Of a stretch of 24,086 bases of DNA, positions 964-22,539 are shown piece by piece. A program made the translations under genes and the position numbers. Position 1 is the stretch's first letter, and every line of letters begins with the position of its first letter. Source of the stretch: a virus. Location: positions 1 through 24,086 of IMG/VR virus record IMGVR_UViG_3300014501_000755; one strand, 5' to 3'. A model generated the notes under the pieces. That model saw only the letters and a program-made list of their open reading frames with translations, did no database searches and was not told the DNA's origin.

Positions 964-1185
964 TTATGCGGCCTCGCGGGGACGGCGGATGCCCTTGCCG
1001 GGGCCGGTGAGGATGGCGGTGCGCAGTTCCTTGAGGCCGAGCTGGTCCGCGATGGCTTTCATAATGGCGATGCGGAAGTTTTGCTCGAGATCGGTGGGGT
1101 AATCGATGCCGCAGTTTGCCTCGTGGATGCGGACGAGGGCGGTGAAGGTCATGCCTTTTTCGTTATCAGGTTTTGTGTCTGCCAT
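964..1185 (-). CDS. Small protein of unknown function, 73 aa
   Basis: I do not recognise this protein. The ORF extends further upstream, but the start chosen is ATG at 1185, because the extension is low-complexity Pro/Ala/Ser sequence that overlaps the neighbouring gene in another frame, and a tandem repeat ends three bases before this ATG. The protein begins with a charged tail (MADTKPDNEKG), continues with a probable helical core (FTALVRIHEANCGIDYP, then NFRIAIMKAIADQLGL) and ends in a basic tail. The core has the look of a small regulatory or DNA-binding-accessory protein, but no motif allows a function. It is the last of three minus-strand genes divergent from the repressor. No Shine-Dalgarno site is visible; the 11-bp repeats occupy that place. 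Confidence 0.6.
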   Translation of the reverse strand: MADTKPDNEKGMTFTALVRIHEANCGIDYPTDLEQNFRIAIMKAIADQLGLKELRTAILTGPGKGIRRPREAA

Positions 1186-1188
1186 AAT

Positions 1189-1221
1189 TACTGATTTCTT
1201 ACTGGTTTCTTGCTGGTTTCT
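1189..1221 (-). repeat. Three tandem 11-bp direct repeats upstream of the 73-aa gene
   Basis: On the minus strand three contiguous units read AGAAACCAGCA, AGAAACCAGTA and AGAAATCAGTA, ending three bases before the ATG at 1185. The 11-bp period is close to one DNA helical turn, as in operator or iteron arrays. Function is inferred only; the array could bind a repressor or act in the mRNA leader. Confidence 0.7.
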
Positions 1222-1240
1222 CTTAATGGGTTGATTGCTT

Positions 1241-1672
1241 TCAGGGAAGGGTGCGGGAGGCAAAGCGGGCTGGCGCCGGCTGGGGGCGGGAGGGGTGGCG
1301 GCGGATGAGGCCGGCGCAGATATCGCTCTCGAAGGTGCCGCGCTTGAGGAAGAACATGTGGACGGCGGCATGGATGAGGCGCTTGACGTCGTCCTGCCTG
1401 CGGCGGGCGGGCTGGGCGTCCACTATGGCGGCGACGGACTCGAGGAGGGCCTGGCTGCCGGGGCGCTCGCCATTGAGGACGCGCTGGAGATGGGCGCGGC
1501 CGACTTGCAACTGGGCGGCGATGGCGCGGACGGAAAGGCCCCTGCAATGGAGGCGGCGCATGAGGCGGACGGGATCGAGCGGCGGGTGGTACGGCGGGGC
1601 GGGAGGGGTGCGGCGGGCGCGGGTGATGCGGCCTCCTTGCCGGGAGCGGGGGGTGCGGCTGCCGCGGTTCAT
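1241..1672 (-). CDS. Helix-turn-helix protein, 143 aa
   Basis: The start ATG at 1672 overlaps the stop of the upstream gene (ATGA), which indicates translational coupling. The N-terminal 30 residues are very basic (Arg, Ser, Pro, Gly), which suits nucleic-acid contact. Residues about 35-85 carry a helix-turn-helix: RRLHCRGLSVRAIAAQLQVG is helix 1 to turn, followed by a recognition helix near RAHLQRVLNGERP, then SQALLESVAAIVDA. A second helical segment follows (DDVKRLIHAAVHMFF), and the tail is basic and Pro-rich. This resembles small XRE-type or resolvase-type HTH regulators. Position opposite the S24 repressor suggests a Cro-, Ner- or antirepressor-like role, but the target is unknown. Confidence 0.7.
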   Translation of the reverse strand: MNRGSRTPRSRQGGRITRARRTPPAPPYHPPLDPVRLMRRLHCRGLSVRAIAAQLQVGRAHLQRVLNGERPGSQALLESVAAIVDAQPARRRQDDVKRLIHAAVHMFFLKRGTFESDICAGLIRRHPSRPQPAPARFASRTLP

Positions 1673-1899
1673 GCGGGCTCCTTCCCTGGAGCGAGGGCGG
1701 CGAGGAAGTCCTGCTGGGCGCGCTGGCACTCGCGGATGCAGGTGGCGGCGTACCGGGCGGCCTCGGATTCCCTCCTGGCCAGGAAGCTGCCGAGGCCCTC
1801 GTAGAAATCGGCGCGGTCCCCGGCGGAGAGCGGGGAATGATCGAGACCGGCCACGGCGACCTGGGCGACGAGATTGAGCAATTGAGTGCGGCTCCTCAT
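1669..1899 (-). CDS. Small helical protein of unknown function, 76 aa, first gene of the leftward operon
   Basis: I do not recognise this protein. It is predicted helical: QLLNLVAQVAVAGLDH, then DRADFYEGLGSFLARRESEAARYAAT, then CQRAQQDFLAALAP. The start ATG at 1899 is preceded by a good ribosome-binding site (GGAGGGGAG about seven bases upstream on the minus strand), one of the few clear ones in this window. Its stop overlaps the start of the helix-turn-helix gene by ATGA, so the two are translated together. It heads the leftward operon facing the repressor, the position where lambdoid and Mu-like phages keep early regulatory genes. Confidence 0.65.
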   Translation of the reverse strand: MRSRTQLLNLVAQVAVAGLDHSPLSAGDRADFYEGLGSFLARRESEAARYAATCIRECQRAQQDFLAALAPGKEPA

Positions 1900-2031: not shown

Positions 2032-2123
2032 GTGGGAAAACAGTGGAAAACCACTTGCTCCAGAGAGTTGCATCTGGTAACAAACATCATGTCCATGAGT
2101 TCACTCTGTGCTCACTAGTGAAC
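2032..2123. promoter_or_regulatory. Candidate operator region between leftward operon and repressor
   Basis: This divergent spacer contains several symmetric or repeated sites. GTTCACT (2099-2105) and AGTGAAC (2117-2123) form an inverted repeat with an 11-bp spacer, and TCACTAGTGA (2112-2121) is a perfect 10-bp palindrome inside it. Upstream, GTGGGAAAAC and GTGGAAAAC are near-direct repeats (about 2032-2051), and AGTGG-AAAA-CCACT is a small hairpin (about 2042-2055). Such sites would suit repressor binding. No strong -35/-10 pair could be assigned. Confidence 0.4.
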
Positions 2124-3016
2124 ATTTGTCCAAGGAAAAATTAAAAACCGTGAAACCAATAGCTCAACGAGTGCGGGACCTGCGGGAGAGACTAGGGATT
2201 ACCCAGGCGGAACTTGCGAGCCGTATGGGGTTCGTACGCAACTACATATCGCTCGTCGAGAATGGGAAGAAGCCCGCGCACCGATTCATCCGCGCCCTAG
2301 AACTCGTCGAGCAGACCCCAGCGCACACTATTGAACAACCGAGCATCATCCGCGAGGAACCCTTCGGGGCCACACCGCGGGGGCGGATCAAGGCCCGGCG
2401 CAAAGAACTGGGATTAACCCTCGACGAACTTGCGAAGCGGACCGGGTATCAAAAGAGCACCATTCACAACGTCGAAGAGGGGCATAGCCGCGCGAGCGAG
2501 AAACTGCTGAGGAAACTGGCCGAGCACCTGGACCTGCCGATCGAGGAACTGATGGGGGGATCGGATTATCCGCATCTGACCGGGGCGGGGCATACCTTTG
2601 GCGCGCAGGCGAACATCGTCACCGAGCCGGGAGTCATCGCGCGGATCATCCCGCTGCTCTCGTGGGCGCAGGCGGGCACCACCCAGGCATGGGACGACGT
2701 GTACGAGCATGAGGGATTTATCGGATTCAACGTGCGCGACCCGAAGGCAGTGGCGGTGCAGATCCGCGGGGACAGCATGGCGCCGCAGTTTCCGCAGGGG
2801 ACCATCGCCATCGTCTACCCGAGCTGGGAGGCGAAGAGCGGCGACCTGGTCATTGCGCGGCTCAACGACGGGACCGTCATGTTCAAACGGCTGCATGTGG
2901 ACGGGGACAACTATACCTTCATCTCGCTGAACCCGATCTACCCGCCGCTGACCGTTGAGAAATCGAAAATAGAGAAAGTGCTGCCGGTGGGGGGAACTTT
3001 TCAGAATCAGCTTTGA
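2108..3016 (+). CDS. Phage repressor: two XRE helix-turn-helix domains plus S24 (LexA/CI-type) autoprotease domain
   Basis: This is the likely master repressor of the element. Numbered from GTG at 2108, residues about 18-70 form a first XRE HTH (LGITQAELASRMGFVRNYIS), residues about 93-150 a second one (LGLTLDELAKRTGYQKSTIH), and the C-terminus is an S24 peptidase. The Ala189-Gly190 bond (in WAQAGTT) matches the self-cleavage site, Ser223 (GDSM) the nucleophile and Lys260 (VMFKRL) the general base. Known biology: RecA filaments trigger self-cleavage and derepression. A later start, GTG at 2150 with AAGGA at 2132-2136, would keep both HTH domains and leave the 2099-2123 palindrome outside the gene. 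I consider it equally plausible. Two HTH domains in one CI-type protein is unusual. Confidence 0.92.
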   Translation: MLTSEHLSKEKLKTVKPIAQRVRDLRERLGITQAELASRMGFVRNYISLVENGKKPAHRFIRALELVEQTPAHTIEQPSIIREEPFGATPRGRIKARRKELGLTLDELAKRTGYQKSTIHNVEEGHSRASEKLLRKLAEHLDLPIEELMGGSDYPHLTGAGHTFGAQANIVTEPGVIARIIPLLSWAQAGTTQAWDDVYEHEGFIGFNVRDPKAVAVQIRGDSMAPQFPQGTIAIVYPSWEAKSGDLVIARLNDGTVMFKRLHVDGDNYTFISLNPIYPPLTVEKSKIEKVLPVGGTFQNQL

Positions 3017-3076
3017 GCTAATCGGTAAGTATCGCGGGTGAGCGGGGGAAATGATTTTGGGCGGGAGTTATTAAGT

Positions 3077-3110
3077 GCCGTAGATACTGGTGGGAATCGG
3101 CGGCTTTTTT
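3077..3110 (+). terminator. Weak terminator candidate after the repressor gene
   Basis: A 4-bp GCCG/CGGC stem (3077-3080 with 3098-3101) with a 17-nt loop is followed within three bases by T6 (3105-3110). The stem is short, so this is a candidate only. It would separate the repressor transcript from the late operon. Confidence 0.3.
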
Positions 3111-3139
3111 GTCCGGTGGAAAATATAGTTACAAGGGTA

Positions 3140-3240
3140 TTGACACCCAGGGCGCGCGCGCCACTTGCAAGCGGGCGCGAAATGTCAAAGGAAAAGAAAG
3201 TGCTCACTGACGCGCCATTTTTCCTGCTGAGGATGGGGAC
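3140..3240 (+). promoter_or_regulatory. Upstream region of the late operon with possible -35 and operator half-site
   Basis: TTGACA occurs at 3140-3145 but no good -10 box follows at 17 bp. An inverted copy, TGTCAA, lies at 3183-3188, so the pair may instead be an inverted repeat for a regulator. GTGCTCACT (3200-3208) is identical to nine bases inside the candidate operator at 2108-2116. GAGGATGGGG (from 3229) is a plausible ribosome-binding site for the lipoprotein gene. No functional proof is possible here. Confidence 0.35.
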
Positions 3241-3702
3241 ATGCAAAAGAGCACCCGCCGCAGGATTTCGCGGCTCCATCCTGGCAGATCAACGACAACC
3301 TTCCTTATAGCCGGCACGCTGGCACTCCTGCAGCCCGGGTGCAGCACCATGAGCAGCTCGCAGCGTGGCGCGCTGCTGGTGGGGGCGGAGGCGCTGGCGA
3401 ATATCGCGGGGACGGCGGCGGCCACTTACTATGGAGGACCCGCGGCGGGAGAGCTGGCGAGCGCGGGATTGAGCGCGCTGGGGAGCGTGCTGCAGGGGTA
3501 CGTGGGAAGCACCGTGCCGAGCTCCGTCGTGGAGGCATCGCCAGGGCTCGCCAACGTGGGGGAGGCGGTGGCCGGAGTCGTGGCGCCCAACCGGACGGTG
3601 AGCCAGGAGGATGTGACCCTTGTGAACCAGGCGGCGACCATCGCGAAAGTCTTGCAACTGGATGTGCCGACCAGCGGCACCAACGGGACGCCGGCGAAGT
3701 AA
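3241..3702 (+). CDS. Putative phage lipoprotein, 153 aa
   Basis: The N-terminus has a basic region, a hydrophobic stretch (FLIAGTLALL) and a lipobox-like LLQPGC with Cys34, so the product is probably a lipid-anchored envelope protein. The rest is Ala/Gly-rich with two hydrophobic segments (AEALANIAGTAAATYYG and AAGELASAGLSALGSVLQGY) and a hydrophilic C-terminus. It opens the plus-strand late operon, next to holin and endolysin, where outer-membrane spanins or superinfection-exclusion lipoproteins occur. The Pro at -2 of the lipobox is atypical. The start ATG has an acceptable Shine-Dalgarno (GAGGATGGGG). Function as o-spanin or exclusion protein is inference. Confidence 0.65.
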   Translation: MQKSTRRRISRLHPGRSTTTFLIAGTLALLQPGCSTMSSSQRGALLVGAEALANIAGTAAATYYGGPAAGELASAGLSALGSVLQGYVGSTVPSSVVEASPGLANVGEAVAGVVAPNRTVSQEDVTLVNQAATIAKVLQLDVPTSGTNGTPAK

Positions 3703-3721
3703 ACAATCCTTATTCACTAAC

Positions 3722-3928
3722 ATGGACTTACTCAAACTCATCCTGACCGGTTACATAAGGCACGCTTTAACCATCGGGTGCGGGTATCTGCTCGCGCACG
3801 GTTTCATAGAACAGAGCGATACCCAGGTGCTGATGAGCGCGGGGCTGGGGATCGCGGGGGTGGCCTGGAGCACCATCAATAAGTACATCCAAAGCCGCGA
3901 GCTAACGAAGGCGCGGGCGGGGAACTAA
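3722..3928 (+). CDS. Holin, Pam3-gp28-like, 68 aa
   Basis: Two hydrophobic segments, residues about 14-27 (LTIGCGYLLAHGF) and 37-53 (LMSAGLGIAGVAW), lie in a 68-residue protein with a charged C-terminal tail. The pattern R-H-A-L-T...G..L...G.I....Q.L.SAGL...GV.W S.I.K matches the Pam3-gp28 type of putative phage holins. Such proteins form lesions in the inner membrane that release the endolysin. The longer in-frame ORF starts upstream inside the lipoprotein gene; ATG at 3722 is chosen because the leader before it is out of context. Endolysin follows 36 bp downstream. No Shine-Dalgarno is visible. Confidence 0.75.
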   Translation: MDLLKLILTGYIRHALTIGCGYLLAHGFIEQSDTQVLMSAGLGIAGVAWSTINKYIQSRELTKARAGN

Positions 3929-3964
3929 CGGATTGCAATCGCTGAACACTCCCGACCACCACCC

Positions 3965-4510
3965 ATGACCGATCGTTTCCCATTTTCCCTGGCCTTCGTG
4001 CTGCGGCACGAGTGCGTCTACGCGGCGGGCCACGATGGCGACATGGCGTTCATCGTCTGTGAAAATGTCCCCGGGGACAGCGGGGGTTGCACAAAATTTG
4101 GAATCGACGCCGCGAGCCACCCGGGAATCGATATCCCCAACCTGACCCTCGATCAAGCGACAGCGCTCTACCGCAATGGAGAATGGAGCGGCTGCCGGTG
4201 CGATGATTTGCGGAACGGGGTCGATACGGCAGTATTCGATTGCGCGGTGAATAACGGCGCGGCGGTCGCGGGCATCCTGCTGCAGCGGGCGATCATCAGG
4301 TGCGGGTACGGCGCGGTCGTCGATGGCATCATCGGGACGCAAACCATCCGGGCGGCGAGCGTCATCAATGAAACCGAGCTGCTGGCGCGGCTGCTGCAAC
4401 TGCGCCGGGAGAGATACACCGACATTGTGCTGCATCACCCGGCGGATGCGAAGTTTCTCAAGGGGTGGCTGGCGCGGGTGGATGACCTGGAACGGGCGCT
4501 CTTCTCATGA
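3965..4510 (+). CDS. Endolysin, GH108-like (N-acetylmuramidase family), 181 aa
   Basis: The sequence follows the glycosyl hydrolase 108 layout: an N-terminal helix with the catalytic Glu (Glu16 in RHEC), then D-S-G-G-C-T-K-F-G-I, the W-S-G-C-R-C-D-D-L segment, and NGVDTAVFDCAVNNG, LLQRA, VDGIIGTQT. It would cleave the glycan backbone of peptidoglycan during lysis. The length of about 180 residues is usual for the family. The usual EGGY after the catalytic Glu is replaced by ECVY and followed by an extra loop before DSGG. It has five or more cysteines, which is unusual for a cytoplasmic lysin. Its stop overlaps the next gene (ATGA at 4507-4510). Confidence 0.85.
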   Translation: MTDRFPFSLAFVLRHECVYAAGHDGDMAFIVCENVPGDSGGCTKFGIDAASHPGIDIPNLTLDQATALYRNGEWSGCRCDDLRNGVDTAVFDCAVNNGAAVAGILLQRAIIRCGYGAVVDGIIGTQTIRAASVINETELLARLLQLRRERYTDIVLHHPADAKFLKGWLARVDDLERALFS

Positions 4511-5316
4511 ACACCGGCGAATCTCCCACTTATGACGAGCCCGCGGCGTATACCGGCGGATGGGCCAACCGGCTGGTGCCGACGGCGAGCGCGCAAGCGG
4601 CCGAGGCGCTGCGGCTGGAAGCGGTGACGGTGTGCGTCGGGTTCGATGACTTACTCGATGTAACCCTTGCGCTGAATCATCCGCACATGGACACGCTCAT
4701 CGTCGTGACCTCGCACGCGGACCGGGCGACGCAGGCGGTGGCGCGAAAGCACGGGGCGTTTTGCGTAGAGACCGATCTGTTTGCGAAGAACGGGCGGAGT
4801 TTCAACAAAGGCGCGGCGATCAATGCGGGATTCAGCAGGTATCAATATCACGGGTGGCGTCTTCACCTGGACGCGGACATCGCGTTGCCGGATAACTTCC
4901 GGCGGATTCTGTTCAATCATACCGCGCTGGACCGCGATTGCATCTACGGGGCGGACCGGGTGGATGTGGTGGGGGAGGAGGCGATGCGGGCACTTACGCG
5001 CGCGGAGGCGGGGCCGCAGCATGCGGATGGATTCCTGGTAAGTGCGCATCCGGCGCATCCGCTGGGGGCGCGCTATGTGGATACGCTGCGGGGGTATGTG
5101 CCGATTGGGTTCTTCCAACTGTGGCATTGCTCGACGCAGAAAGAGTACCCGTGGTCGCTGGGGACGGCGGCGCACGACGACGTGATGTTTGCCGAGCAAT
5201 GGCCCGCACAGTACCGGAGACATCTGCCGACGATCATCTGCCACCATCTCTGCGCCCGGGCGCCCCGGCTGGGGGAGAACTGGGAAGGGCGGCGCGAACA
5301 ACCCCGTATATCATGA
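4507..5316 (+). CDS. GT-A-fold glycosyltransferase-like protein (family 2-like), 269 aa
   Basis: Residues about 38-150 look like a nucleotide-sugar-binding GT-A domain: AVTVCVGFDDLLDVTLA (beta1-alpha1), MDTLIVVTSHAD (beta2), a K-G-A-A-I-N-A-G segment typical of GT2 enzymes, and the acidic metal site LHLDADIALP with Asp122 and Asp124 (DxD). A later His/Asp-rich stretch (AAHDDVMFAEQW) may carry the catalytic base. The enzyme would move a sugar from a nucleotide donor; the acceptor is unknown. It overlaps the endolysin gene by ATGA and the next gene by ATGA, so it is translated within the lysis block. Candidates for its role are host surface modification (superinfection exclusion), a virion protein, or phage DNA. 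Confidence 0.75.
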   Translation: MNTGESPTYDEPAAYTGGWANRLVPTASAQAAEALRLEAVTVCVGFDDLLDVTLALNHPHMDTLIVVTSHADRATQAVARKHGAFCVETDLFAKNGRSFNKGAAINAGFSRYQYHGWRLHLDADIALPDNFRRILFNHTALDRDCIYGADRVDVVGEEAMRALTRAEAGPQHADGFLVSAHPAHPLGARYVDTLRGYVPIGFFQLWHCSTQKEYPWSLGTAAHDDVMFAEQWPAQYRRHLPTIICHHLCARAPRLGENWEGRREQPRIS

Positions 5317-5786
5317 AAGTAATTACCTTTTACCATTCCCTTGCCGATCTGAACCTGGAGAACGCGGGACCGTTTCTGACCGTAATGATAGGGCTCATCG
5401 TGATCTCCGGATGCGCGGGGCTGCTGTTGCGGGTGGCGAACGATGCGAAGACCTTCTTTGGGCGGCAACCGCCGCTGGACATCGACGTGCGGAAGATCGA
5501 AGCGCGTGTGGGGCGGCTGGAGGTGGTGATGGAGCGGCTGGCGACCAAGGATTCACTGGGTCAACTGGAACGGGATTTCCACGCGATGCTGGATGAGAAA
5601 TTCGAGGGGCTGGATGCGAAGCGGAGCCGGGACACGAATGACTTGCACAAGCATGTGGAATCCACGTCGAACAACTTTCACAAGCGGCTGAACGATATCT
5701 CCACGGCGCTGGGAGACGAGATCAAGCGGCTGCCGAACGATGTATTCCAGATGCTCAAGAATGCGACGAGCCTGGGGAGAGACTGA
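5313..5786 (+). CDS. Membrane-anchored coiled-coil protein (Mu gp25/Rz-like), 157 aa
   Basis: The start ATG at 5313 overlaps the stop of the glycosyltransferase (ATGA). Residues about 20-41 (FLTVMIGLIVISGCAGLLLR) form one transmembrane segment, followed by a long helical, coiled-coil-like region (IEARVGRLEVVMERLATKD onward, LERDFHAMLDEKFEGLDAK). This topology fits an inner-membrane spanin or the DUF2730/gp25-type protein that sits between lysis and terminase genes in Mu. A role in disrupting the outer envelope together with the upstream lipoprotein is plausible but inferred. Confidence 0.6.
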   Translation: MKVITFYHSLADLNLENAGPFLTVMIGLIVISGCAGLLLRVANDAKTFFGRQPPLDIDVRKIEARVGRLEVVMERLATKDSLGQLERDFHAMLDEKFEGLDAKRSRDTNDLHKHVESTSNNFHKRLNDISTALGDEIKRLPNDVFQMLKNATSLGRD

Positions 5787-5844
5787 GCGAACGCGGATCA
5801 GCGGCACGATACCAGAGCATTTAACGCGACTTCCTTTACTACTT

Positions 5845-6096
5845 ATGCGCATCACGAATGTACGACGGGCGATCCTTGATATCCTGGAGCGGGCGCAGCC
5901 TTACGCGCTGCCGGAACAACAGCTCATCGTGGAGCTGAATGGAACCGTGCGCCCACCGGCGGGGAAGGCGGAGCTGGATGACGAATTGGGTTATCTGCAG
6001 AGGCGGGGATTCATCACGACCATCGAGGACCCGCTGGATGAGGCGCTGGTCAAATGGGCAATCACCGAAGCGGGCCGGACGATGCTGCGCCAATAG
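5845..6096 (+). CDS. Winged-helix protein upstream of terminase, 83 aa (Mu gp26 position)
   Basis: The protein has the layout of a compact winged helix: NVRRAILDILERAQPYALPEQQLIVEL, then KAELDDELGYLQRRGFITTIED as recognition helix and wing start, then DEALVKWAITEAGRTMLRQ. It sits directly before the small terminase, in the place of Mu gp26. The true start is probably ATG at 5845, preceded by TTTACTACTT and no Shine-Dalgarno. An upstream in-frame ATG at 5740 would lie inside the previous gene. Possible roles are in packaging-site recognition or late-gene regulation. Confidence 0.65.
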   Translation: MRITNVRRAILDILERAQPYALPEQQLIVELNGTVRPPAGKAELDDELGYLQRRGFITTIEDPLDEALVKWAITEAGRTMLRQ

Positions 6097-6101
6097 AACC
6101 G

Positions 6102-6920
6102 ATGATCGCCAAGGCAAGACTAAAGCGGCGCACCAAGCTTGAAATGCTGGCGCCTGAACTGCAGGAGGAAATCCTCGCGCATTGCAAGAACCTGACGCAA
6201 AAGGAGGGTGCGCAGTGGCTGAAGGAGGAACATGGGATAGAAGCAGGGATGACCAGCCTGGGGAAGTGGCTGACAGAGAAGCAGGAAAGGAGATCGATCC
6301 TGAAACCGGCGCGCAAGACGCGGGCGGATTCCCGCCTTGGAATCCTGCCGGCGGACGCCCAGGAGAATATATTCAGCCATTGTGAAACAGTGACGCTGGA
6401 GGAAGGGGTAAAATGGCTCAGGGAGGAAATGAAGATCGAGTCGAGCGCACAAGGCTTGAGCAGATGGCTAATGAAACGGCGGGCGGATATGTCGATGGAG
6501 GAACGGCTGGAAGAGATCCGGGACGATAGCAAACGCGCGAAGATGGTTGGCGATCTGTTCGGGGCGGCGACGGCGCTCTCCGAGGCGAATTGCGTATTGG
6601 TCGCGCAGGCTGTGTTCGAGGAATTCCGGAGGCCGGCGGCGGAACGGGATTCGAAACGGCTAATGCAATACATGGGGATGGCGCTGAAGGCGCGCACCGT
6701 GGATTTGGCTTATAACAAGTTCCGATTCGATGCGGCGAAGAGGGCGCGGGAATGCGCGGCGGGGTTGAATGAGATCAACGCAAACGATGGGGACGAGCGG
6801 AAGAAAACAGAGATGGCGATGGTCCTGCTCTTCGGCGAGGCGCCGTCGATCGACGTTACGCTGCCCGAGAATAATCCCGGTGAACCCGATGTGGAACCGA
6901 CGCAGGAGGATGCGGCCTGA
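6102..6920 (+). CDS. Terminase small subunit-like protein (Mu gp27/DUF3486-type) with duplicated HTH unit, 272 aa
   Basis: The ATG at 6102 is chosen over 6054, which lies inside the preceding gene. The N-terminal part holds two copies of the same helix-turn-helix unit, residues about 13-64 and 79-127, 66 residues apart. The shared pattern is L..L....Q..I..HC...T..EG..WL.EE..I......L..WL..... The second half (from about 130) is helical and matches the general layout of gp27-like small terminases, with an acidic tail (PGEPDVEPTQEDAA). It would recognise DNA for packaging and load the large subunit. Its stop overlaps the large terminase start by one base (TGATG). Tandem HTH units are not what I expect for this family. 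Confidence 0.75.
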   Translation: MIAKARLKRRTKLEMLAPELQEEILAHCKNLTQKEGAQWLKEEHGIEAGMTSLGKWLTEKQERRSILKPARKTRADSRLGILPADAQENIFSHCETVTLEEGVKWLREEMKIESSAQGLSRWLMKRRADMSMEERLEEIRDDSKRAKMVGDLFGAATALSEANCVLVAQAVFEEFRRPAAERDSKRLMQYMGMALKARTVDLAYNKFRFDAAKRARECAAGLNEINANDGDERKKTEMAMVLLFGEAPSIDVTLPENNPGEPDVEPTQEDAA

Positions 6921-8413
6921 TGTACGTGTACCCGTACAAGAAAGTGAAGCTGACGGCGAGGCAGCGGGCGAGCCAGGAGGCGGCGATGATCAGCCTGCGC
7001 CAATACCAGGCGACGGCGTTCTGGTCCACGCTTGGGATGCTGGTGCTGCACTGGAGCAGGCAGATCGGCAAGAGTTACACGCTGGCCGCATGGGGGATCC
7101 ACCGCATCCTGGCGAACCCAGGGAGATTGGTGACGGTATTGAGCAACTCAAAATCGAACGGGATGGAGTTCATCCAGAAATGCTCGGAGATGTGCGTGTT
7201 GCTGAGCAAGGCATTCGAACAGGTGGATCTTTCCGCCGACGAGAAGATCGAGAACATGCGGATGGAAGTTCGCATCAAGGAGAAGCGGAAGGTCGGGCGG
7301 ATCATCGTGCTGGCGGCGAATCCGCGGACGGCGCGGGGATTTTCCGGAGACCTGATCCTGGATGAGTTCGCGTTTCACGAGGATAGCACGGCGATCTGGG
7401 ACGCGGCGGAGCCGATTATCTCGAGCAACAAGAGTTTTGCGTGCCGTGTGGCGAGCACGGGCAATGGGCGGTTCAATATGTTCCATCAACTGGCGGGCGA
7501 ATCGTCGCCGTACTGGGTATCCCGGATTCGCAGGAGCGAGGCGTATGTGATGGGCGTGACCATCCATGACCCGGCGTCGCGGAGGGAACTGAGTCCCGAC
7601 GAGGCGCGAGACAGGGCGCTGGACAAGGGAAGCTATGACCAGAACTACGAGTGCGCATTCAATGATGAAAGCATGGCGCTGCTTACCAATGAGCTGCTGG
7701 CGGCGTGCGAGTACCAGCTTGAAGCCGGAGACAATGAGTGCTTGATCTGCTCGCAGGATTGGACGCGGGAGGCGATCGATCTGCTGCGCGCTTGCAAGGG
7801 GCCGCTGGGAGTGGGGCTGGATGTGGGGCGCGCCCGCGATATCACGGTGATCACCATAGGGGAGAAGATAGGGGGCATTGTATTCACGCGGGCCATCCTG
7901 CGGATCAGCGCGATGCGGCTGCCGCAGCAGCTCGAGCGGCTGCGGCCGGTGCTGGAGATGCGGAACTTCGGAAGGCTGAGCGGGGACGCGACGGGGCTGG
8001 GGCTCGGGCTGGTGGAGTTCGCGCAGGAGCTGTGCGGGAGCTACCGCGCGGAGGCGGTGCAATTCGCGAGCCGGGAGAAGCGGACCGTGCGGGGCATCCA
8101 GCAAAGCGACTCGGCATTGGTGACGGAACTTATGGCGCTCGACTTACTCGAGGCATTCGAGGGCGGGGGGATCCGGATCCCGTGCGAGGCGGCGCTGCGG
8201 GAGAGCCTGCGGAAGCCGGAGCGGATCACCACGGCAAACGGCGTGCGGATCGCGGCGACGCGGGACGGGGCGGGACATGCGGATGAATTCTGGAGCATGG
8301 CGCTGATGGTGCGGACCCTGAAGGGGGCGGCCACGAGCTTTGCTTACGAGGCCGGGGAAGCAAATCCCGGCGAGAAATATGCAGCAATGGAAAAAAAGGC
8401 TCTAACATGGTAA
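6920..8413 (+). CDS. Terminase large subunit, Mu gp28-like, 497 aa
   Basis: This is the ATP-driven packaging motor with nuclease. The ATPase domain shows the arginine-containing Walker A (R47-Q-I-G-K-S52) and Walker B with coupling Glu (LILDEF, Asp148-Glu149). The RNase H-like nuclease follows, with acidic residues at Asp301 (GLDVGRARD), Asp356 (GDATG) and Asp455 (HADEFWSMAL). Length and motif order fit gp28-type large terminases of Mu-like phages, which package by a headful mechanism. It overlaps the portal gene by 7 bp, as expected for a coupled packaging operon. No frameshift or missing catalytic residue is seen. Confidence 0.92.
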   Translation: MYVYPYKKVKLTARQRASQEAAMISLRQYQATAFWSTLGMLVLHWSRQIGKSYTLAAWGIHRILANPGRLVTVLSNSKSNGMEFIQKCSEMCVLLSKAFEQVDLSADEKIENMRMEVRIKEKRKVGRIIVLAANPRTARGFSGDLILDEFAFHEDSTAIWDAAEPIISSNKSFACRVASTGNGRFNMFHQLAGESSPYWVSRIRRSEAYVMGVTIHDPASRRELSPDEARDRALDKGSYDQNYECAFNDESMALLTNELLAACEYQLEAGDNECLICSQDWTREAIDLLRACKGPLGVGLDVGRARDITVITIGEKIGGIVFTRAILRISAMRLPQQLERLRPVLEMRNFGRLSGDATGLGLGLVEFAQELCGSYRAEAVQFASREKRTVRGIQQSDSALVTELMALDLLEAFEGGGIRIPCEAALRESLRKPERITTANGVRIAATRDGAGHADEFWSMALMVRTLKGAATSFAYEAGEANPGEKYAAMEKKALTW

Positions 8414-9759: not shown

Positions 9760-9780
9760 CAAAACAACACGTTTACTTAT

Positions 9781-11013: not shown

Positions 11014-11031
11014 TTCAAAAGAGTAACTAAC

Positions 11032-11187: not shown

Positions 11188-11198
11188 TGAATTTGCCA

Positions 11199-11255: not shown

Positions 11256-11287
11256 CAAGCCAAACAACAAAGGAGAATGACACATCT

Positions 11288-11803: not shown

Positions 11804-11830
11804 CCAACGCGATTACTACCTATCAAACCT

Positions 11831-12913: not shown

Positions 12914-12920
12914 CCAAAAC

Positions 12921-12983
12921 GGCCTGGTTGGGGGAGCCGCCGCCCGAGTCCTGGGGGAAAAACTCCGGGCGGCGGCCAAGGCC
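12921..12983 (+). promoter_or_regulatory. Long intercistronic hairpin after the capsid gene
   Basis: GCCGCCGCCCGAGT (12936-12949) pairs with ACTCCGGGCGGCGGC (12962-12976) with one bulge; the loop is twelve bases. An outer GGCCT/AGGCC pair extends it. It lies between the capsid stop (12913) and the next start (12999) and has no T-tract. Such a structure could protect the capsid mRNA from 3' decay or reduce read-through to downstream genes, setting high capsid dosage. Confidence 0.65.
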
Positions 12984-12998
12984 GGGCAATAAACAAAT

Positions 12999-13451: not shown

Positions 13452-13455
13452 TCTT

Positions 13456-14166: not shown

Positions 14167-14184
14167 CCAAAACACTTACCACTT

Positions 14185-15126: not shown

Positions 15127-15133
15127 TGACATT

Positions 15134-15550: not shown

Positions 15551-15573
15551 GCTTTTATAGAGCCCTTCCATTT

Positions 15574-16434
15574 ATGCCCACGTTCAATACACAAATCATC
15601 CGCATCGCAGCCGACACGACGAGCAAGGATAACGTGCTCGACCTCAATACCTCCGCCGAGCCGCAGGCCTGGTGGGCGCGGGACCTGACCTTGCAGGTGG
15701 GGGTATTCGCCGGGGAGACGCTGCTGGACGTGAGCGACCTGCAAAGCGTGACGGTGAACCTGAAGGATCCGTCGAACCTGGACGGGGCGGCGCTGGTAAC
15801 GAAGACGATCACGAGCTTCGATAACACGACGACGGCGGGGACGTGGGCGGCCGGAACGCAGCAGCATTTCGTGGTGAGCTTCGCGGCGGATGACCTGTCG
15901 TTCTCGCTTACAAATGCGTCGCGGCTGGTGCGGCTGGTGATCACGGCCATCACCACGGGGGGGAAGACGGGGACCATCTGCGTCGGCACGATCAATATCA
16001 TCGACGACGGCGGGAGCAGCCCGGCGGACAACCCGGCGAATGCCATAACCGTAAGCCAGGCACAGGCGATGGTGGCGGCGCTGGCGTGGACGGCTGGGGT
16101 TGCAGCCATCAGCGCGGCGGGGAATGTGAGTGTGCAGAACGGGCAGACGTGGCTGCTGGGGAGGCAGGCGTTCTCGGCCGCGGCGGGAGCGGGGGCGTAT
16201 GTGGCCAACATCATCCTGAGCGATGCGAATGCGCTGGCGGGGGCATTGCTGCGGATCCCGATCGACTTCGCGGCGACGCTGAACCCGACGATCAATATCT
16301 ATGACGGCAGCACGGGGGGGACATTGCTGCAAACCATTACCCAGATCGATGCGAGCACGGCGCGCAGCTTCCTGGGGACCTACGGATACGACGGGACCCA
16401 TTGGCACAAGGAAAGCGGAGCCTGGGTGCTCTGA
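15574..16434 (+). CDS. Probable tail/baseplate or fibre protein, 286 aa
   Basis: I do not recognise a specific family. Residues 1-155 form a beta-rich domain (ARDLTLQVGVFAGETLLDVSD, VTVNLKDPSN, QQHFVVSFAADDLSFSLTNA) resembling the N-terminal domain of baseplate upper or receptor-binding proteins. Residues about 200-286 form another beta domain ending in GTYGYDGTHWHKESGAWVL, a motif common in fibre tips and adhesins. It is placed between the tail proteins and the SGNH fibre, so an attachment role is likely. ATG 15574 follows CCATTT with no Shine-Dalgarno. Confidence 0.5.
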   Translation: MPTFNTQIIRIAADTTSKDNVLDLNTSAEPQAWWARDLTLQVGVFAGETLLDVSDLQSVTVNLKDPSNLDGAALVTKTITSFDNTTTAGTWAAGTQQHFVVSFAADDLSFSLTNASRLVRLVITAITTGGKTGTICVGTINIIDDGGSSPADNPANAITVSQAQAMVAALAWTAGVAAISAAGNVSVQNGQTWLLGRQAFSAAAGAGAYVANIILSDANALAGALLRIPIDFAATLNPTINIYDGSTGGTLLQTITQIDASTARSFLGTYGYDGTHWHKESGAWVL

Positions 16435-16458: not shown

Positions 16459-18438
16459 ATGAACTTATTCGCACTTATGAAAACAAGATACTCCAATGTC
16501 AGGCTGATCACGCTGGCGGCGCTGCTGGCCGGCTTATGCGGCACCCTCACCACGATTCTCCTCGCCGATCCGCCGAGCAGCACGGCGGCGCCGGCCACGG
16601 CGACGACCGGTACGGCAGCGTACGCGGGAGCGCTCGGCTCCGCGTTAAACTCCGTCTCGCTGACGGGCACGCAAGGGCTCTGGGGTGCGAACCTGAACAA
16701 CCAGGCGTTCGTATGGGAGGGTGATTCCATCACTGCGACACCCAATGGGGCGAGCGTACAATCGTGGGCCGGCCTTCTGTCTGGAATCACGAGCGGCACC
16801 GGGGGTGTCATGGCCTCTGGCACGGCGTATGGCTTCTTTAACGGGCATGGAAAGGCGTATATCACCGCCGTGGGCGGGTCGGTGATCAGCGGGAGCAGCA
16901 CGGGGTACCTTGGCGCGCCGGAGACGATTTCGACATCATGGAGCGGAACCACCTCGACACTGAACCTTAGCGGGAGCTGCTACTCGATCCTCGGCCCGAT
17001 GGCCGTAACCGGAACCAATATCGCCTACGGCACCACGGGTACGCTTTCGAATAGCGGCACCACGCTGACGCTCTCCCAGCCAACGCTTGGCCCGAGCGGA
17101 ACCACGGTCACCATCCGGCTGGGAGGGCAGAACGTGCAGGACCGGTATGCGTCGCAAGTGTATCCCCACCGGCCGGCGGCGAATGGGGGAGATGGCGGGC
17201 CGCGATCGATGTTCTTCCTGATGGGAGGGGCGAATCCGCTGCACATCGGGGAGAACGCCGCGACGATCATCGCCGAGCTGACCAACGTGTGCAACCAAGC
17301 GAAGGGGGACGGGTTCACCGTGGTTCTATCGACGATCCTGCCCACGGTGGGCCAGAATTGGTGGAGCTTCTCGCAGGACCTGCAAAGGCAGATCGTGAAC
17401 GACGCCATCCGCCGCAGGCTCATCCCGTGCGATATCGTCGTTGATTCCTGCGAAGCGATCAGCGGGGATAGTTTCATCAATCCAGTGGAATTCGATGTAA
17501 ACGGGGTCCACCCGCTGGCGCAGGCGAACGTGGTGCTGGCGAATTACTACAACTCCGCGTTGCTGGCCGGAGGGTATATTTACAAGGCGACGCCGGGTTT
17601 CGTCGATCCGCCGACGACGTTTCAAAACTCGATCACGCTGAATAACGGCATACTTTATACGGGTTCATTCGCCGGGAATGACTTCGACCTGGGGAACACC
17701 GGGGAATGGTTCAGCATCAAGCAGCCGAACATGCCAAACGCGACCAATGCATGGGTGGGCTTTGGAAAGGATAGCTCGGGGTTCGATTCCGCGCGGCTGA
17801 CTTATACCCTGCACTCCGCCGGGGCGGACCCGAGCAACGCCGTCTCGCTGGGCGTAGTGAATGGTCCTGCCTATATTGTGAATGGGTACGGGCAATCGTA
17901 TCTGAACATCTCCGCGACCACGGCGCAAAGCCTCTCCTCGAACCTTGTGCGGTCGACCATCGACTCGGCGGGGGCATTCGTGGGGATGCTGATCTACAAC
18001 GATCAGAATGGGCTGAACAATACGGGTATCGAGGAGACGCAGAGCCTGCTCTCCGCGGGGGCGCTGAATGAAGGATTCCTGGTGGGACACGATACCGCGA
18101 ATGCGGGAAACATCGGCGGGCTCGGGTTTATCTATAACTCCTCGGGCGCTTCCAGCAATGCGGTCACGATTGGCATCTCGGGGGAGACGGCCACGAGTCA
18201 GGACGCGTACTTCTTCAAGTCGGGCGATGTCGCGATAGGGACGGGAACGGATAGCGGATACGGATTTGAAGTAAGCAACACGGCGAAGATGGACTCCAAC
18301 CTGACGGTATCAGGCACGCTGGTGCTGACAGGCACAGCGTCCACGCCAATCAATACGGGCACGGTGGCTTTTTGGGTCAAAGGCGCGGTACTGAGCGGGA
18401 CGACGACATTGACCGGGAGATTTCCGCTTTATCAATGA
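16459..18438 (+). CDS. Tail fibre-like protein with SGNH/GDSL hydrolase domain and N-terminal signal-like helix, 659 aa
   Basis: Numbered from ATG 16459. Residues about 14-36 form a hydrophobic helix (VRLITLAALLAGLCGTLTTILLA). Residues about 85-370 contain SGNH hydrolase elements: WEGDSIT with Ser90, a GGAN segment for block III, the helix plus strand AKGDGFTVVLSTILP, and NGVHPLAQANVVLANYY with His351. The C-terminal third is beta-rich, with LNNGILYTG and a tip resembling fibre ends (VAIGTGTDSGYGFEV). It would hydrolyse esters, for example on surface polysaccharide. The residue three before His351 is Asn348, where Asp is usual. An alternative start at 16477 directly follows GCACTT. Confidence 0.65.
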   Translation: MNLFALMKTRYSNVRLITLAALLAGLCGTLTTILLADPPSSTAAPATATTGTAAYAGALGSALNSVSLTGTQGLWGANLNNQAFVWEGDSITATPNGASVQSWAGLLSGITSGTGGVMASGTAYGFFNGHGKAYITAVGGSVISGSSTGYLGAPETISTSWSGTTSTLNLSGSCYSILGPMAVTGTNIAYGTTGTLSNSGTTLTLSQPTLGPSGTTVTIRLGGQNVQDRYASQVYPHRPAANGGDGGPRSMFFLMGGANPLHIGENAATIIAELTNVCNQAKGDGFTVVLSTILPTVGQNWWSFSQDLQRQIVNDAIRRRLIPCDIVVDSCEAISGDSFINPVEFDVNGVHPLAQANVVLANYYNSALLAGGYIYKATPGFVDPPTTFQNSITLNNGILYTGSFAGNDFDLGNTGEWFSIKQPNMPNATNAWVGFGKDSSGFDSARLTYTLHSAGADPSNAVSLGVVNGPAYIVNGYGQSYLNISATTAQSLSSNLVRSTIDSAGAFVGMLIYNDQNGLNNTGIEETQSLLSAGALNEGFLVGHDTANAGNIGGLGFIYNSSGASSNAVTIGISGETATSQDAYFFKSGDVAIGTGTDSGYGFEVSNTAKMDSNLTVSGTLVLTGTASTPINTGTVAFWVKGAVLSGTTTLTGRFPLYQ

Positions 18439-18488: not shown

Positions 18489-18758
18489 ATGGCTGATCAG
18501 GATGAAACGGACGACGCGGGCGCGGGCTCCACCGAGCCCGGCGCGGAGGCGGCGCCCGCAGATGAAAGCTCCCGCGAGGAAGCGTCGCGGGAGAAGAGCG
18601 AGGCGATGGAGCGGGATATCAGCCGGCTGTTTGCACTTATGGAGCGGATGACCCAAGCCCCAGCGGAGAAGCCGGGGGAGAGCGGGATGCTGCAGCAATT
18701 GATCACGCGCATCGAGCGGCTGGAAGGCCAGCTCAAGCAAGGGAGGGCGACGAATTAG
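18489..18758 (+). CDS. Small acidic coiled-coil protein, 89 aa
   Basis: The first third is acidic and Ala/Ser-rich (MADQDETDDAGAGSTEPGAEAAP) and the rest is helical with heptads (SRLFALMERM, LQQLITRIERLEGQLKQG). Its stop codon TAG is directly followed by the ATG of the hub gene, so translation is coupled. It sits in the place where tape-measure or tail-chaperone genes are usually found, yet 89 residues is far too short for a tape measure. No family is recognised. Confidence 0.6.
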   Translation: MADQDETDDAGAGSTEPGAEAAPADESSREEASREKSEAMERDISRLFALMERMTQAPAEKPGESGMLQQLITRIERLEGQLKQGRATN

Positions 18759-21700
18759 ATGAGCTGGCATATCCAGATTGGCGAGGGGACGCCGGAGGCG
18801 TTCTCGACGCTGGGGTGCAACAAGCTGAAGCGGGAACTCCGCTCGCAGGCGGCGGGAACGTTTTCCTTTACCGAGACGACGGCGCAGATGGATGGCGGCG
18901 CGCTGGCGGGGAACCTGACGCCGTGCATGGTGCTGTGGGTGCCGGATGACATTGCCGATCCGGTGCCGCAGATTTACTTCCAGGGACGGGTGACCGCGCT
19001 CCCCAGGATCGGCGCGCCGGCGAATGAGGAGCGGCGGTATGTGATCAGTGATGCGTGGAATGACCTGGAGAGGCTGACTTACCAGCAGCAATGGAATAAG
19101 ATCACGGGCTTTGACGAGAGCGGGAACCCGACGACGGCGACGGAGTACCGGAGCGAGTTCATCCTGGGGATGAATGCGAGCGGCAACCCGCAAAACAGCG
19201 ACACGGCGATGGAGGATGTGCTGAACTGGGCGATAGGGCGCGGGGCGTGGATGCAGATCGGGCAGATCCTCGTGGGAGGGGGCGGGGCGGCGCCGGTGCC
19301 ATACAAGGAGATGCACGATCTGCCGTGCAGCGCGGTGATGCAGGAGCTGATGCGGCTGACGCCGGATGCGGTGTCGTGGTTTGATTACGCGACCACGCCG
19401 CCGACCTTCCACGTGACGCGGCGCGCGGCTTGCACGAGCCAGGAGTTCCCGTTCGCGGGGGCGCCGGAGGATATCCACCTGACGCCGCGCAATGACCTGG
19501 TGCGGAGCGAGGTGGTGCTGCGCTATGTGCAGGAGGGGCGGAACGACGGGCAGCCGGTGGTGGCGACCACCATCGACGCGGCGCCGGGCGGGGCGGATGG
19601 GCTGGCATTTGACGCGCTGGTGGCGACGGTGCGGCTGGCGGGTGCGGATGCGGTGTACCAGCACCAGCCGGTGAAGGTGAAGCCGATCCAGGCGATCCCG
19701 GGCGGCGACGATGATACGGACGCGTGCAACTGGTGGGGCGAGCACGTGCAGTGGCTCTACCAATTCTCCGCGGAGCGGCTGAACCTGGATAACGATCTGA
19801 CGGGCGGCTATGTGGAAAGCCCGCAGTACCTGGACGACGGGGTGACGGCGGTCGATTACGCGCTGGGCAGTTACCCGAGCGAGCTGGCGTCGGGCAACCT
19901 GGCGGATTGGATGGGGGTAAAGTTTGCCTATTGCATGTTTTACTCGTCTTTTACTTATAATTACCCGGACGTGGCGGATGAGGAGAGCCTGGCGGCGGTA
20001 AAGATATTCGGTGGATCGACCGATGGGACGAGCCACACGGCGGGCGACCAGACGCCGCAGGCGGTCGCGTGCCGGGTGCTGGGGACGAGCGCGGTGAGCC
20101 AGACTTACAAGCAGCTCTCGAGTTATACGGAGGCGGAGCCGGTGCCGGCGGGGCTGGCCTCCGCGCTGTACGGGGCGCTGAGCACGCTGCACTACGAGGG
20201 GTCTTATACGTTTGTGCAGGCGGAGGTGAATCCGACGTTTACGCTCGGCACGGTGCTGAACATCGCGGGGTCCGGGCAGCCGTGGAGCACGATGAACGCG
20301 CTGGTGCAGGAGATGGTGGATGACCTGGACGCGGGGCGCTCGACCTGGCGGGTGGGGCCGCCAGCGCATCTGACGATCCAGGACTTGATGGAGCAACTGC
20401 GCTGGACGCGGACGCGCGCGCCGAGCGGGCACATCAAGGAACGGGCGAGCGGGACGCCCTCGGCGCCGCTGGTCAATGGGACGACGAAGCCGGTGACGAG
20501 CTCGCCCATCGGGACGCCGACGGCGATCACGAAGTACCCGTGGATCGGCGCGGGGGGCGACCAGATGAACGGGGATGGGACGGCGGCGACCTATGACGCG
20601 GTGCTGGGTTATGGGCAGAGCAGCTTCGCGGGGGACGTGGGGCACGCGAAGCCGCTGGAGGAGTTTGAGATCAGCGTGGGGAATGACGGCTCGGACTGGA
20701 GCGGGCCGGATTATGATGCGAGCGCGCTGGATAATGGGCTCTCGATTATCACGGGGGATGGGACGGCGGATGATGATTGCATCGAGATCAGCCGGGGCAA
20801 CGGGAAGGTGGGGATGTATCCCAATACGCCGAAGATCGACCTGACGATGGACGATAACGATAACGAGGTGCTGCTTGATTGCTCGGTGCCATCGGCGCAG
20901 GTCACGGATGACTCCGGGAATGTTATCACCATCGACGGGTCCTCGACCTCTATGGACATGACCGATGCCAGCGGGAACAACATCAACCTGGATGGCAGCA
21001 CCACGGAGATCTCGCTCAATGACGCGAGCGGGAACACTATCTACATCGAGGGCGCGACGCCGAACATCGATATGACCAGCAGCGGCGGGAGCGAGATCAA
21101 CATCACGGCGGCGACGCCGGAGATCGCGATGACCGGGAGCGGCGGGGGCACGATCACGCTGGATGGATCGGTGCCGTCGATCGAGATCGAGGACAGCGGC
21201 GATATTATCGATATCGACGGGTCGTCGGCATCCATCGACATGACCTCGAGCGGGGGCAACAACCTGAACCTGGATGCGACGACGACCGAGATATCGCTCA
21301 ATGACTCGAGCGGCAGCACTATCTCCATGGATGGCTCGACCCCTAACATCGACATTACCAGCAGCGGGGGGAGCGAGATCAATATCGATGGGAGCTACCC
21401 GAAGATTGAAATGTCGAACGGCCACGGCGCTGTAGCAACATTGCAGTGTATGTATGCGCCGAGCATTTCCCTGGAGGATGAAAGCGGGGACCAAGTGGTG
21501 GCCGGGATAACATCGAGTCCATCGGTGGAGATCGGGAGTGCCACGGGGAATACCATCAACCTGTCCGCATCTCCGGACCCGACGATCACGCTGACTGACG
21601 GGGCAGGGAGCTCCGTGGAGATCGATGGGTCGGAGCAGTCGATCAATTTCAACCCGTCCGGCGGCGGCTCGGGCTCGGTGAGTCTCAATGGGCTCACATG

Positions 21701-21995
21701 CTACCATCCAGGAGACAGCCTGGTTGATCTCATAGATACCACCAGTGGAAACGCCATCGGGTTGGAGACCACCACTGGGTTCGAGTTTCAGTATGGCGAC
21801 GGAACTGGGCAGGTGAATATCTATGGGTACGCGATGTATCTGACTTACACCAATGGCGAGGTCGAGACGCAGATAGTTATCGATGCCAGCAATGATTTGA
21901 TCACCGGCGACTCGATTGAATTCATCGAGATGGTGGCGTGCACGGCGGGGGGCCCGGACCGGACGTACCGGGTGCTGGGGGTGCGGCTCTCTTGA
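18759..21995 (+). CDS. Baseplate hub-like protein with beta-repeat C-terminus, 1078 aa
   Basis: The N-terminal roughly 580 residues resemble a tail hub protein of the gp27/gp44 type: a beta-barrel start (LRSQAAGTFSFTETTAQM), a segment LWVPDDIADPVPQIYFQGRV, then WNDLERLTYQQQWNKI and repeated Trp-rich stretches such as CNWWGEHVQWLYQFS. A linker rich in Thr, Pro and Gly follows. Residues about 717-970 contain about 13 repeats of 19-20 residues and the C-terminal domain (971-1078) is a globular tip. The repeats suggest a beta-solenoid or triple beta-helix shaft. The protein would form the tail tip and contact the cell surface. The start is fixed by the adjacent upstream stop. Confidence 0.65.
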   Translation: MSWHIQIGEGTPEAFSTLGCNKLKRELRSQAAGTFSFTETTAQMDGGALAGNLTPCMVLWVPDDIADPVPQIYFQGRVTALPRIGAPANEERRYVISDAWNDLERLTYQQQWNKITGFDESGNPTTATEYRSEFILGMNASGNPQNSDTAMEDVLNWAIGRGAWMQIGQILVGGGGAAPVPYKEMHDLPCSAVMQELMRLTPDAVSWFDYATTPPTFHVTRRAACTSQEFPFAGAPEDIHLTPRNDLVRSEVVLRYVQEGRNDGQPVVATTIDAAPGGADGLAFDALVATVRLAGADAVYQHQPVKVKPIQAIPGGDDDTDACNWWGEHVQWLYQFSAERLNLDNDLTGGYVESPQYLDDGVTAVDYALGSYPSELASGNLADWMGVKFAYCMFYSSFTYNYPDVADEESLAAVKIFGGSTDGTSHTAGDQTPQAVACRVLGTSAVSQTYKQLSSYTEAEPVPAGLASALYGALSTLHYEGSYTFVQAEVNPTFTLGTVLNIAGSGQPWSTMNALVQEMVDDLDAGRSTWRVGPPAHLTIQDLMEQLRWTRTRAPSGHIKERASGTPSAPLVNGTTKPVTSSPIGTPTAITKYPWIGAGGDQMNGDGTAATYDAVLGYGQSSFAGDVGHAKPLEEFEISVGNDGSDWSGPDYDASALDNGLSIITGDGTADDDCIEISRGNGKVGMYPNTPKIDLTMDDNDNEVLLDCSVPSAQVTDDSGNVITIDGSSTSMDMTDASGNNINLDGSTTEISLNDASGNTIYIEGATPNIDMTSSGGSEINITAATPEIAMTGSGGGTITLDGSVPSIEIEDSGDIIDIDGSSASIDMTSSGGNNLNLDATTTEISLNDSSGSTISMDGSTPNIDITSSGGSEINIDGSYPKIEMSNGHGAVATLQCMYAPSISLEDESGDQVVAGITSSPSVEIGSATGNTINLSASPDPTITLTDGAGSSVEIDGSEQSINFNPSGGGSGSVSLNGLTCYHPGDSLVDLIDTTSGNAIGLETTTGFEFQYGDGTGQVNIYGYAMYLTYTNGEVETQIVIDASNDLITGDSIEFIEMVACTAGGPDRTYRVLGVRLS
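20907..21668 (+). repeat. About 13 in-frame repeats of 57-60 bp (19-20 residues) in the hub gene
   Basis: Units read approximately S-G-N-x-I-x-I-D-G-S-x-x-x-I-x-M-x-D, with variants S-G-G-S-E-I-N-I and E-I-S-L-N. Alternating hydrophobic Ile/Met/Leu with a Gly-Ser turn every 19-20 residues is the signature of a beta-helical shaft. The copies have diverged, so the array is old rather than a recent slip. Unit number could vary between strains. Confidence 0.7.
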
Positions 21996-21999
21996 TTTT

Positions 22000-22209
22000 A
22001 TGAACAACCAAAAGCCACAGGTCCTGACCGTGCGCCTGACGCCGGCGCAACGGGGCAATCTGCTCACCTTCCTGGAGCGGACGCGGCTCGAAGGGCGCGA
22101 GGCGGCCGCGCTGCTGGAGCTGCGGCATCTCTTTCAAAACGCAAAACCTGAATCGGCTCCAGTCGAGCCCAAGAACCAACCGGCTCCCAGCGAGCCACAA
22201 CCGGAATAA
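22000..22209 (+). CDS. Small protein of unknown function, 69 aa
   Basis: The N-terminal 45 residues are helical and basic (LTVRLTPAQRGNLLTFLERTRLEGREAAALLELRHLF) and the tail is Pro/Glu-rich and probably disordered (PESAPVEPKNQPAPSEPQPE). The basic helical part could contact DNA or membrane. It starts four bases after the hub stop with a T-rich leader and no Shine-Dalgarno. It is likely part of the late operon; a packaging, tail accessory or regulatory role is unknown. Confidence 0.55.
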   Translation: MNNQKPQVLTVRLTPAQRGNLLTFLERTRLEGREAAALLELRHLFQNAKPESAPVEPKNQPAPSEPQPE

Positions 22210-22215
22210 AACACC

Positions 22216-22539
22216 ATGTCACTCCTCGATGCACCAACACCGCTGCCCGTAGCGCAACGCCGGGCGCAGGCAGCGCTCCGCAAACCGCGCGCGATTCTCA
22301 CCAACCTGGTAAAGGAATGGTCGGAAGGGGTGGACCATGTGTGGAACCCGCCCGACGGGACGACGCCCGCGCAGATCCTGGCGCAACTGGGCACGAGCGG
22401 GGTGGAGCTCTTCACCCGCAGCGCGCAGCTCCGCGCCTTCCTGGAGGGGCAGGCGGCCGGCTGCACGAACATCCCCGCCGCCGCCCGCATCCAGGCGGTG
22501 AATCTGAATGCGGACGGGACGGTGACGCTGAAGAGCTGA
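22216..22539 (+). CDS. Last gene of the late operon, unknown function, 107 aa
   Basis: I do not recognise a family. The protein is a soluble helical protein with a basic start (PVAQRRAQAALRKPRAILTNLVKEW), a middle with VWNPPDGTTPAQILAQLGTSG and a C-terminal part (FLEGQAAGCTNIPAAARIQAVNLNADGTVTL). The middle and end have the look of short phage structural or accessory proteins found near the end of tail operons in prophages. It is seven bases after the preceding gene. No terminator follows; the next gene is host-like and starts 70 bp away, so read-through is possible. Confidence 0.55.
   Translation: MSLLDAPTPLPVAQRRAQAALRKPRAILTNLVKEWSEGVDHVWNPPDGTTPAQILAQLGTSGVELFTRSAQLRAFLEGQAAGCTNIPAAARIQAVNLNADGTVTLKS

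Follow-up and report, generated by a model that had tools for sequence, protein, structure and literature searches.

The window analysed here, which is the whole of the linear IMG/VR virus contig IMGVR_UViG_3300014501_000755 (24,086 bp, GC content 62%, no tRNA found), carries a phage gene span of 21.6 kb that we interpret, with a probability of about 0.62, as a prophage from a lineage of Mu-like siphophages with stub tails, now immobilised in a verrucomicrobial chromosome. Its ancestor would have been a transposable phage with a B3-like head, a siphophage tail, and MuA and MuB genes in a leftward operon. An internal deletion would have cut this operon, sparing the small genes and the gene that we call p964, so that the element could no longer drive its own transposition or transpositional replication. 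The lineage to which it belongs has lost its tape measure, apart from one short gene for a coiled-coil protein immediately ahead of the hub gene. Upon induction of the late genes, the predicted particle would have a Mu-like head and neck, a tail tube that is very short or reduced to a stub, and a distal-tail ring together with the hub. The large terminase (TerL) could package any DNA that it engages, and transfer of host DNA or rescue by a relative bearing A and B would be possible.

Loss of the transposition genes

Several relatives (G004, G006, G007, G009, G010, and others) possess a leftward operon encoding a transposase (PHROG 310, 5.6e-10) and a TniB/MuB-type ATPase (PHROG 296, 1.6e-13; PF13401), with p964 following after one short intervening gene in L152 and L153 and after two in G006. 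In the window, p964 is intact (75% identical to G006 197-415, with 79% DNA identity over 198 bp) and marks the former MuA/MuB site, and the interval between it and the repressor gene holds only ~0.9 kb of small open reading frames (ORFs). Since p964 has been kept while A and B are gone, comparison with the relatives that bear them indicates that the ancestor had both genes and that they were lost through an internal deletion of the leftward operon. Searches with PHROG and Pfam profiles detected no integrase, MuA or other transposase, MuB or tape measure among the window proteins, the small ones included. Profiles built from the relatives' MuA, MuB, MuF, gpG-position gene and tape measure were also run against all six frames of the window and gave no matches. 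The absence of integrase, MuA, MuB, MuF and sheath genes, reported in a first-pass annotation of this DNA, is borne out.

A siphophage tail without its ruler

There is no room in the window for the missing genes, because its genes are contiguous at both the MuF and the tape-measure sites. The gp36-like gene runs to 13451 and is followed from 13456 on by the next gene, at the site where relatives have MuF and a gene of ~200 amino acids (aa), and the hub gene starts directly after the 89-aa gene at 18489-18758. In ten relatives, a long helix-rich protein is encoded immediately or almost immediately ahead of the hub (466, 608, 613, 638, 657, 688, 759, 760, 805, and 1081 aa), and all ten have MuF-type and ~200-aa genes after gp36. 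Only the 688-aa protein (L159) matches PHROG tape-measure families (7.1e-18), and the remaining nine were called tape measures by position and composition. The window's clade instead has proteins of 82-164 aa in this slot, with a disordered acidic N-terminus and the conserved end DIIxRIERLExWVxTNR, or nothing recognisable; position and motif suggest that this stub is probably what survives of the ancestral tape measure, namely its tip-binding C-terminus. Of the 9 other clade contigs, 8 are without the two genes that follow gp36 in relatives, and the retention of both in G005 implies that loss of the tape measure preceded, or was separate from, their loss.

A sequence search of the PDB with tube, distal-tail and hub profiles gave no matches. 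Structures predicted with AlphaFold2 and compared with Foldseek made the tube and the distal-tail protein recognisable by fold, and on these models the window's tail is of the non-contractile siphophage type, with its ruler lost. A tail tube gene is thus present, and the suspicion in the first-pass annotation that the tail module was too divergent to recognise held for the tube and the distal-tail protein, while the tape measure is truly reduced: a full-length ruler is absent, as had been claimed, but the stub occupies its slot. An assembly artefact, which a single metagenomic contig might bring to mind, is a scarcely credible source of the missing genes, given that head and tail genes run on without space for them and that tape-measure absence is repeated in ten contigs from at least 8 metagenomes.

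The 659-aa gene at 16459-18438 was considered as a tape measure and rejected on account of its low helix content, its signal-like start, and the position of its equivalents beside the tape measure in relatives. Both it and its equivalents are large and variable, begin with a signal-peptide-like sequence, and are encoded within the tail operon. Small signal-bearing genes also occur between the decoration and capsid genes in several relatives.

Relatives, host and selection

Searches with the portal protein recovered 15 viral loci (45-84% identity) and, in bacterial genomes, 52 loci that are nearly all titled Verrucomicrobia, Opitutales, Puniceicoccales or Kiritimatiellota, whereas phage databases yielded only distant B3/Mu-type matches. 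The window and nine other contigs make up one clade, with 75-88% identity in most head genes and the gene order repressor, lysis, small terminase (TerS), TerL, portal, protease, decoration, capsid, gp36, neck, tube, distal-tail protein (Dit), p15574, variable protein, stub, hub. Relatives bearing A and B group with this clade in trees of the portal and the major capsid protein (MCP). The ROK kinase of the window has a 56% identical homologue in the verrucomicrobial strain LW23, and the sequences point to a host that is probably a relative of the family containing this strain. Only more distant relatives of the clade were found in host genomes (from the orders of L017, Opitutales-type and LW23-type genomes).

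Pairwise ratios of nonsynonymous to synonymous substitution (dN/dS) between the window and its clade are 0.04-0.3 for most genes, with dS ~1 or saturated. They are 0.05-0.13 for the repressor (0.05 against G001), 0.04-0.16 for the portal, 0.06-0.20 for the MCP and 0.08-0.21 for TerL, and reach 0.4-0.6 in some pairs for the holin, TerS, the Dit-like protein and p15574. Such low ratios over a long divergence indicate that the state without a tape measure has long been kept with working genes, and purifying selection of this kind argues against simple decay of the clade. The description of the element as a decayed prophage is therefore apt for its transposition genes only, the other frames being intact.

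The clade may alternatively consist of normal, autonomous transposable phages with stub tails, the window being a lysogen killed by a recent A/B deletion and now functionless, an explanation to which we assign somewhat less than even odds. A recent deletion in this copy, within an otherwise living lineage, is possible. Variation in the hub and in receptor-type genes points to a phage-like evolution of host range, the head genes are common to the A/B-bearing G006 and the clade, and the left flanks of the window and G005 differ, G005 having a host-type epimerase gene to the left of the holin. On the other side, no clade contig with A and B was found, and additional viral scans with repressor and lysin profiles, directed at left ends, detected no contig that crosses the repressor into A/B.

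It should be noted that several observations count against an immobilised, stub-tailed prophage lineage. Absence of A and B is seen only in the window and, less surely, in G005, the remaining clade contigs ending at or after the repressor, so that the window's clade may still be mobile; the deletion rests on one metagenomic assembly. A recognisable stub is absent in G001 and L113, and by sequence the stubs bear only a weak resemblance to the C-terminal end of the tape measures (hhalign P 0.0011 in the case of the Opitutales and 0.15 in that of the window's clade). The hub is also poorly conserved (dN/dS 0.3-0.7).

At the ends of the element, no convincing target-site duplication was detected: a single TG...CA pair flanked by a repeat of 5 bp was observed (793/22578), where chance alone would give 1.3. 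In an empty-site comparison at the ROK gene, the neighbouring genes of G752 differ from those of the window.

Two further loci were observed among the relatives. In the second prophage of strain LW23 (L067), the head and tail genes are rearranged, with portal and TerL encoded on the strand opposite to that of capsid, protease and tube, and a genome of another verrucomicrobial order (L164 in G089, 2219-15891) carries a cluster without tape measure, MuF or tube in which the portal frame is broken.

A related cluster in the Opitutales

Two order-level searches, in which almost the same genomes were sampled, found the portal in 93/373 and 92/373 Opitutales genomes, nearly always as a single copy and also in genomes of 0.7-1.0 Mb. 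The cluster has the order TerS-TerL-portal-protease-decoration-capsid-gp36, extended in some genomes by neck, Dit, p15574, a coil of 40-80 aa and hub, and it is without MuA, MuB, MuF, the ~200-aa gene, tube and long tape measure. TerL is present in 10 of the 10 genomes tested and stands directly upstream of the portal in Cerasicoccus, and the hub profile was unmatched in 15 of 16 genomes tested, 14 of these 15 being larger than 2.5 Mb. In six loci (L021, L024, L033, L034, L039, and L044), coiled-coil peptides of 41-53 aa ending in (R/Q)(I/L)(N/D)NLR were observed just before the hub.

For 24 taxa (23 clusters and one phage), the portal tree and a tree of six ribosomal proteins have 15 of 21 splits in common (Mantel r 0.51, with 0 of 2000 permutations as high). 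Co-diversification, a criterion for gene transfer agents (PMC9662315), is thus seen in the Opitutales cluster, in a phylum for which no report of such an agent was found among open-licence papers. Ratios of dN/dS are 0.03-0.3 in eight close Opitutales pairs, one flanking host family is common to six loci, and G265 carries both the cluster and an A-bearing prophage. Taken together, sequence comparisons strongly suggest that the Opitutales cluster (e.g., L127-L139 and L145) is a candidate Mu-derived gene transfer agent. It is monophyletic in the portal tree, with ~45-50% identity to the window's clade, which groups apart from it with A/B- and tape-measure-bearing phages, and these separate positions imply that the ruler was probably lost independently in the two.

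The proposal in the first-pass annotation of a gene-transfer-agent-like particle is accordingly strongly suggested for this distant homologous cluster and is not established for the window's element. That the latter has been domesticated as a maker of such particles packaging host DNA seems unlikely. Its transposition genes are gone, yet repressor, lysis, packaging and head genes are intact, and A/B, MuF and the tape measure were lost in parallel in the vertically inherited Opitutales cluster; against this, the repressor and lysis genes kept are of phage type, the differing flanks of the window and G005 fit poorly, and no host genome of the clade was found among the genomes searched. Still more improbable is a helper-dependent satellite, as had also been suggested, with a relative bearing A and B to mobilise it. 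A and B are missing and related phages with both exist, but phage satellites normally lack complete head, packaging, lysis and tail-tip genes of their own, and the element has all of these.

Tentatively, and with the odds against it, the clade and the Opitutales cluster may be viewed as two separate cases in which Mu-like siphophages of Verrucomicrobiota were converted step by step into particle makers that serve the host, transposition genes, MuF and the tape measure being lost repeatedly. On this view, the Opitutales cluster would be a new family of gene transfer agents that spans the order and is retained even in genomes of <1 Mb. The order-wide, vertically inherited head-gene cluster is a more surprising result than the window element, and the long retention of a capsid and packaging set in highly reduced Opitutales genomes needs explanation. 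A lineage that keeps tube and hub with no more than a stub of the tape measure offers a natural test of the length-ruler rule. Open-licence papers that link Verrucomicrobia, Opitut- or Puniceicoccales to gene transfer agents or to Mu-like phages were searched, and no description of either lineage was found. In 2019, a stretch of a verrucomicrobial genome encoding a large terminase and two Mu-like proteins was called a degraded prophage (PMC6920513), and it and the Opitutales cluster may be the same.

Gene content of the window

ORF calling (codon and amino-acid statistics) gave a minus-strand left group, comprising p964 and two small ORFs, and an unbroken plus-strand gene series from the repressor to 22539, followed by the ROK kinase (Table 1). 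The repressor, lysis, packaging, head and tail-tip set listed in the first-pass annotation is backed by profile matches in every module, and its coordinates agree with ours to within one start codon. For the leftmost phage gene, on the minus strand, the most likely start is 1185 rather than 1371. The host-like flanks that it recognised were likewise found: the ROK kinase on the right and, on the left, the start of a protein presumed, on what is known of Verrucomicrobiota, to be of the secreted repeat/autotransporter type.

Table 1. Features of the 24,086-bp window and the evidence for each
Position	Strand	Feature	Evidence
2-262	-	Start of presumed secreted repeat (autotransporter-type) protein, left host-like flank	Sequence
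964-1185	-	p964, remnant of leftward early operon	75% identical to G006 197-415; MuA-MuB-small-p964 order in L152 and L153
1241-1672	-	Small helix-turn-helix (HTH) protein, first in early leftward operon	Weak PHROG HTH matches, 0.0025
1669-1899	-	Small early-operon ORF, no known family	ORF calling, profile search
2108-3016	+	Repressor, two HTH and S24 peptidase; start may instead be 2225	PF00717 3.5e-21; PHROG 4 7.5e-42
3349-3702	+	Lysis-region conserved hypothetical protein	78% identity in relatives
3722-3928	+	Holin, Pam3 gp28 family	PF23987 7.8e-12
3965-4510	+	Endolysin, GH108 and peptidoglycan-binding domain	PF05838 8.9e-13; PHROG 315 3e-35
4507-5316	+	Possible glycosyltransferase, kept in clade beside lysis genes	76-86% identity in relatives; no Pfam match
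5313-5786	+	p5313, conserved phage protein	Relatives
5845-6096	+	p5845, conserved phage protein	PHROG 436 3.9e-06
6144-6920	+	Probable TerS	Site before TerL; HTH_33 1.9e-04
6920-8413	+	TerL	PF03237 1.7e-10 (another profile value 2e-22)
8407-9759	+	Mu-type portal	PF06074 (Portal_Mu) 2.8e-51
9781-11013	+	Mu-type head maturation protease	PHROG 328 1.1e-12
11288-11803	+	Decoration/scaffold protein	PHROG 673 2.5e-05
11831-12913	+	MCP	PHROG 1005 7.4e-05; 80-88% identity within clade
12999-13451	+	Mu gp36-like head-tail adaptor	PF07030 7.3e-04
13456-14166	+	Probable tail terminator/neck protein, C-terminal Fn3_assoc domain	PF13287 1.9e-09; role from position
14185-15126	+	Tail tube, two-domain T5 pb6/P74-26 type	AlphaFold2 pLDDT 77.7; Foldseek P74-26 tube 1.4e-06, T5 tube 2.9e-06
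15134-15550	+	p15134, distal-tail (Dit/tube-adaptor) protein	AlphaFold2 pLDDT 91.2; Foldseek AFP baseplate 2.8e-04, 80alpha baseplate 6.6e-04
15574-16434	+	p15574, conserved tail-region protein	Relatives
16459-18438	+	Variable secreted-type tail-region protein (659 aa), signal-like N-terminus	Sequence, relatives
18489-18758	+	Tape-measure-slot stub, acidic, 89 aa, conserved coiled-coil-like end	Position; RIERLE motif in seven clade members
18759-21995	+	Tail hub/tip protein	N-terminal ~580 aa conserved in relatives
22000-22539	+	Two small right-end genes (22000-22209 and 22216-22539)	Homologues after hub in G001 and L114
22610-23485	+	ROK-family sugar kinase, right host flank	PF00480 1.1e-47

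Comparison with known systems

One close likeness is to the B3 group of Mu-like Pseudomonas siphophages. The window's TerL has up to ~30% identity to B3-type phages, the Mu-type portal, protease, MCP and gp36-like genes stand in Mu order, and the window's ancestors had MuA and MuB. It differs from this group in being without A, B, MuF and a full-length tape measure, in its short gene span, and in its verrucomicrobial host. In TP901-1, tape-measure deletions shorten the tail, the C-terminal ~60 aa are required, and 154 N-terminal residues are also needed for infectivity (PMC5099701), whereas in the window only a C-terminal-like piece appears to be left. Phage satellites normally have no full capsid set of their own, and the window's head and packaging set is complete.

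In common with RcGTA and other recognised viriforms, the window has head and packaging genes of phage origin but none for integration, and its structural proteins derive from tailed phages. With host-like genes on both sides in this one contig, the element may be endogenised. A host-congruent phylogeny is a further likeness, found in the related Opitutales cluster. The window differs from these agents in keeping a phage repressor and lysis genes and in its unrelated Mu-type head. A short-tailed particle resembling gene transfer agents is known in a different phylum, while the short tail predicted for the window would be a siphophage tail minus its tape measure.

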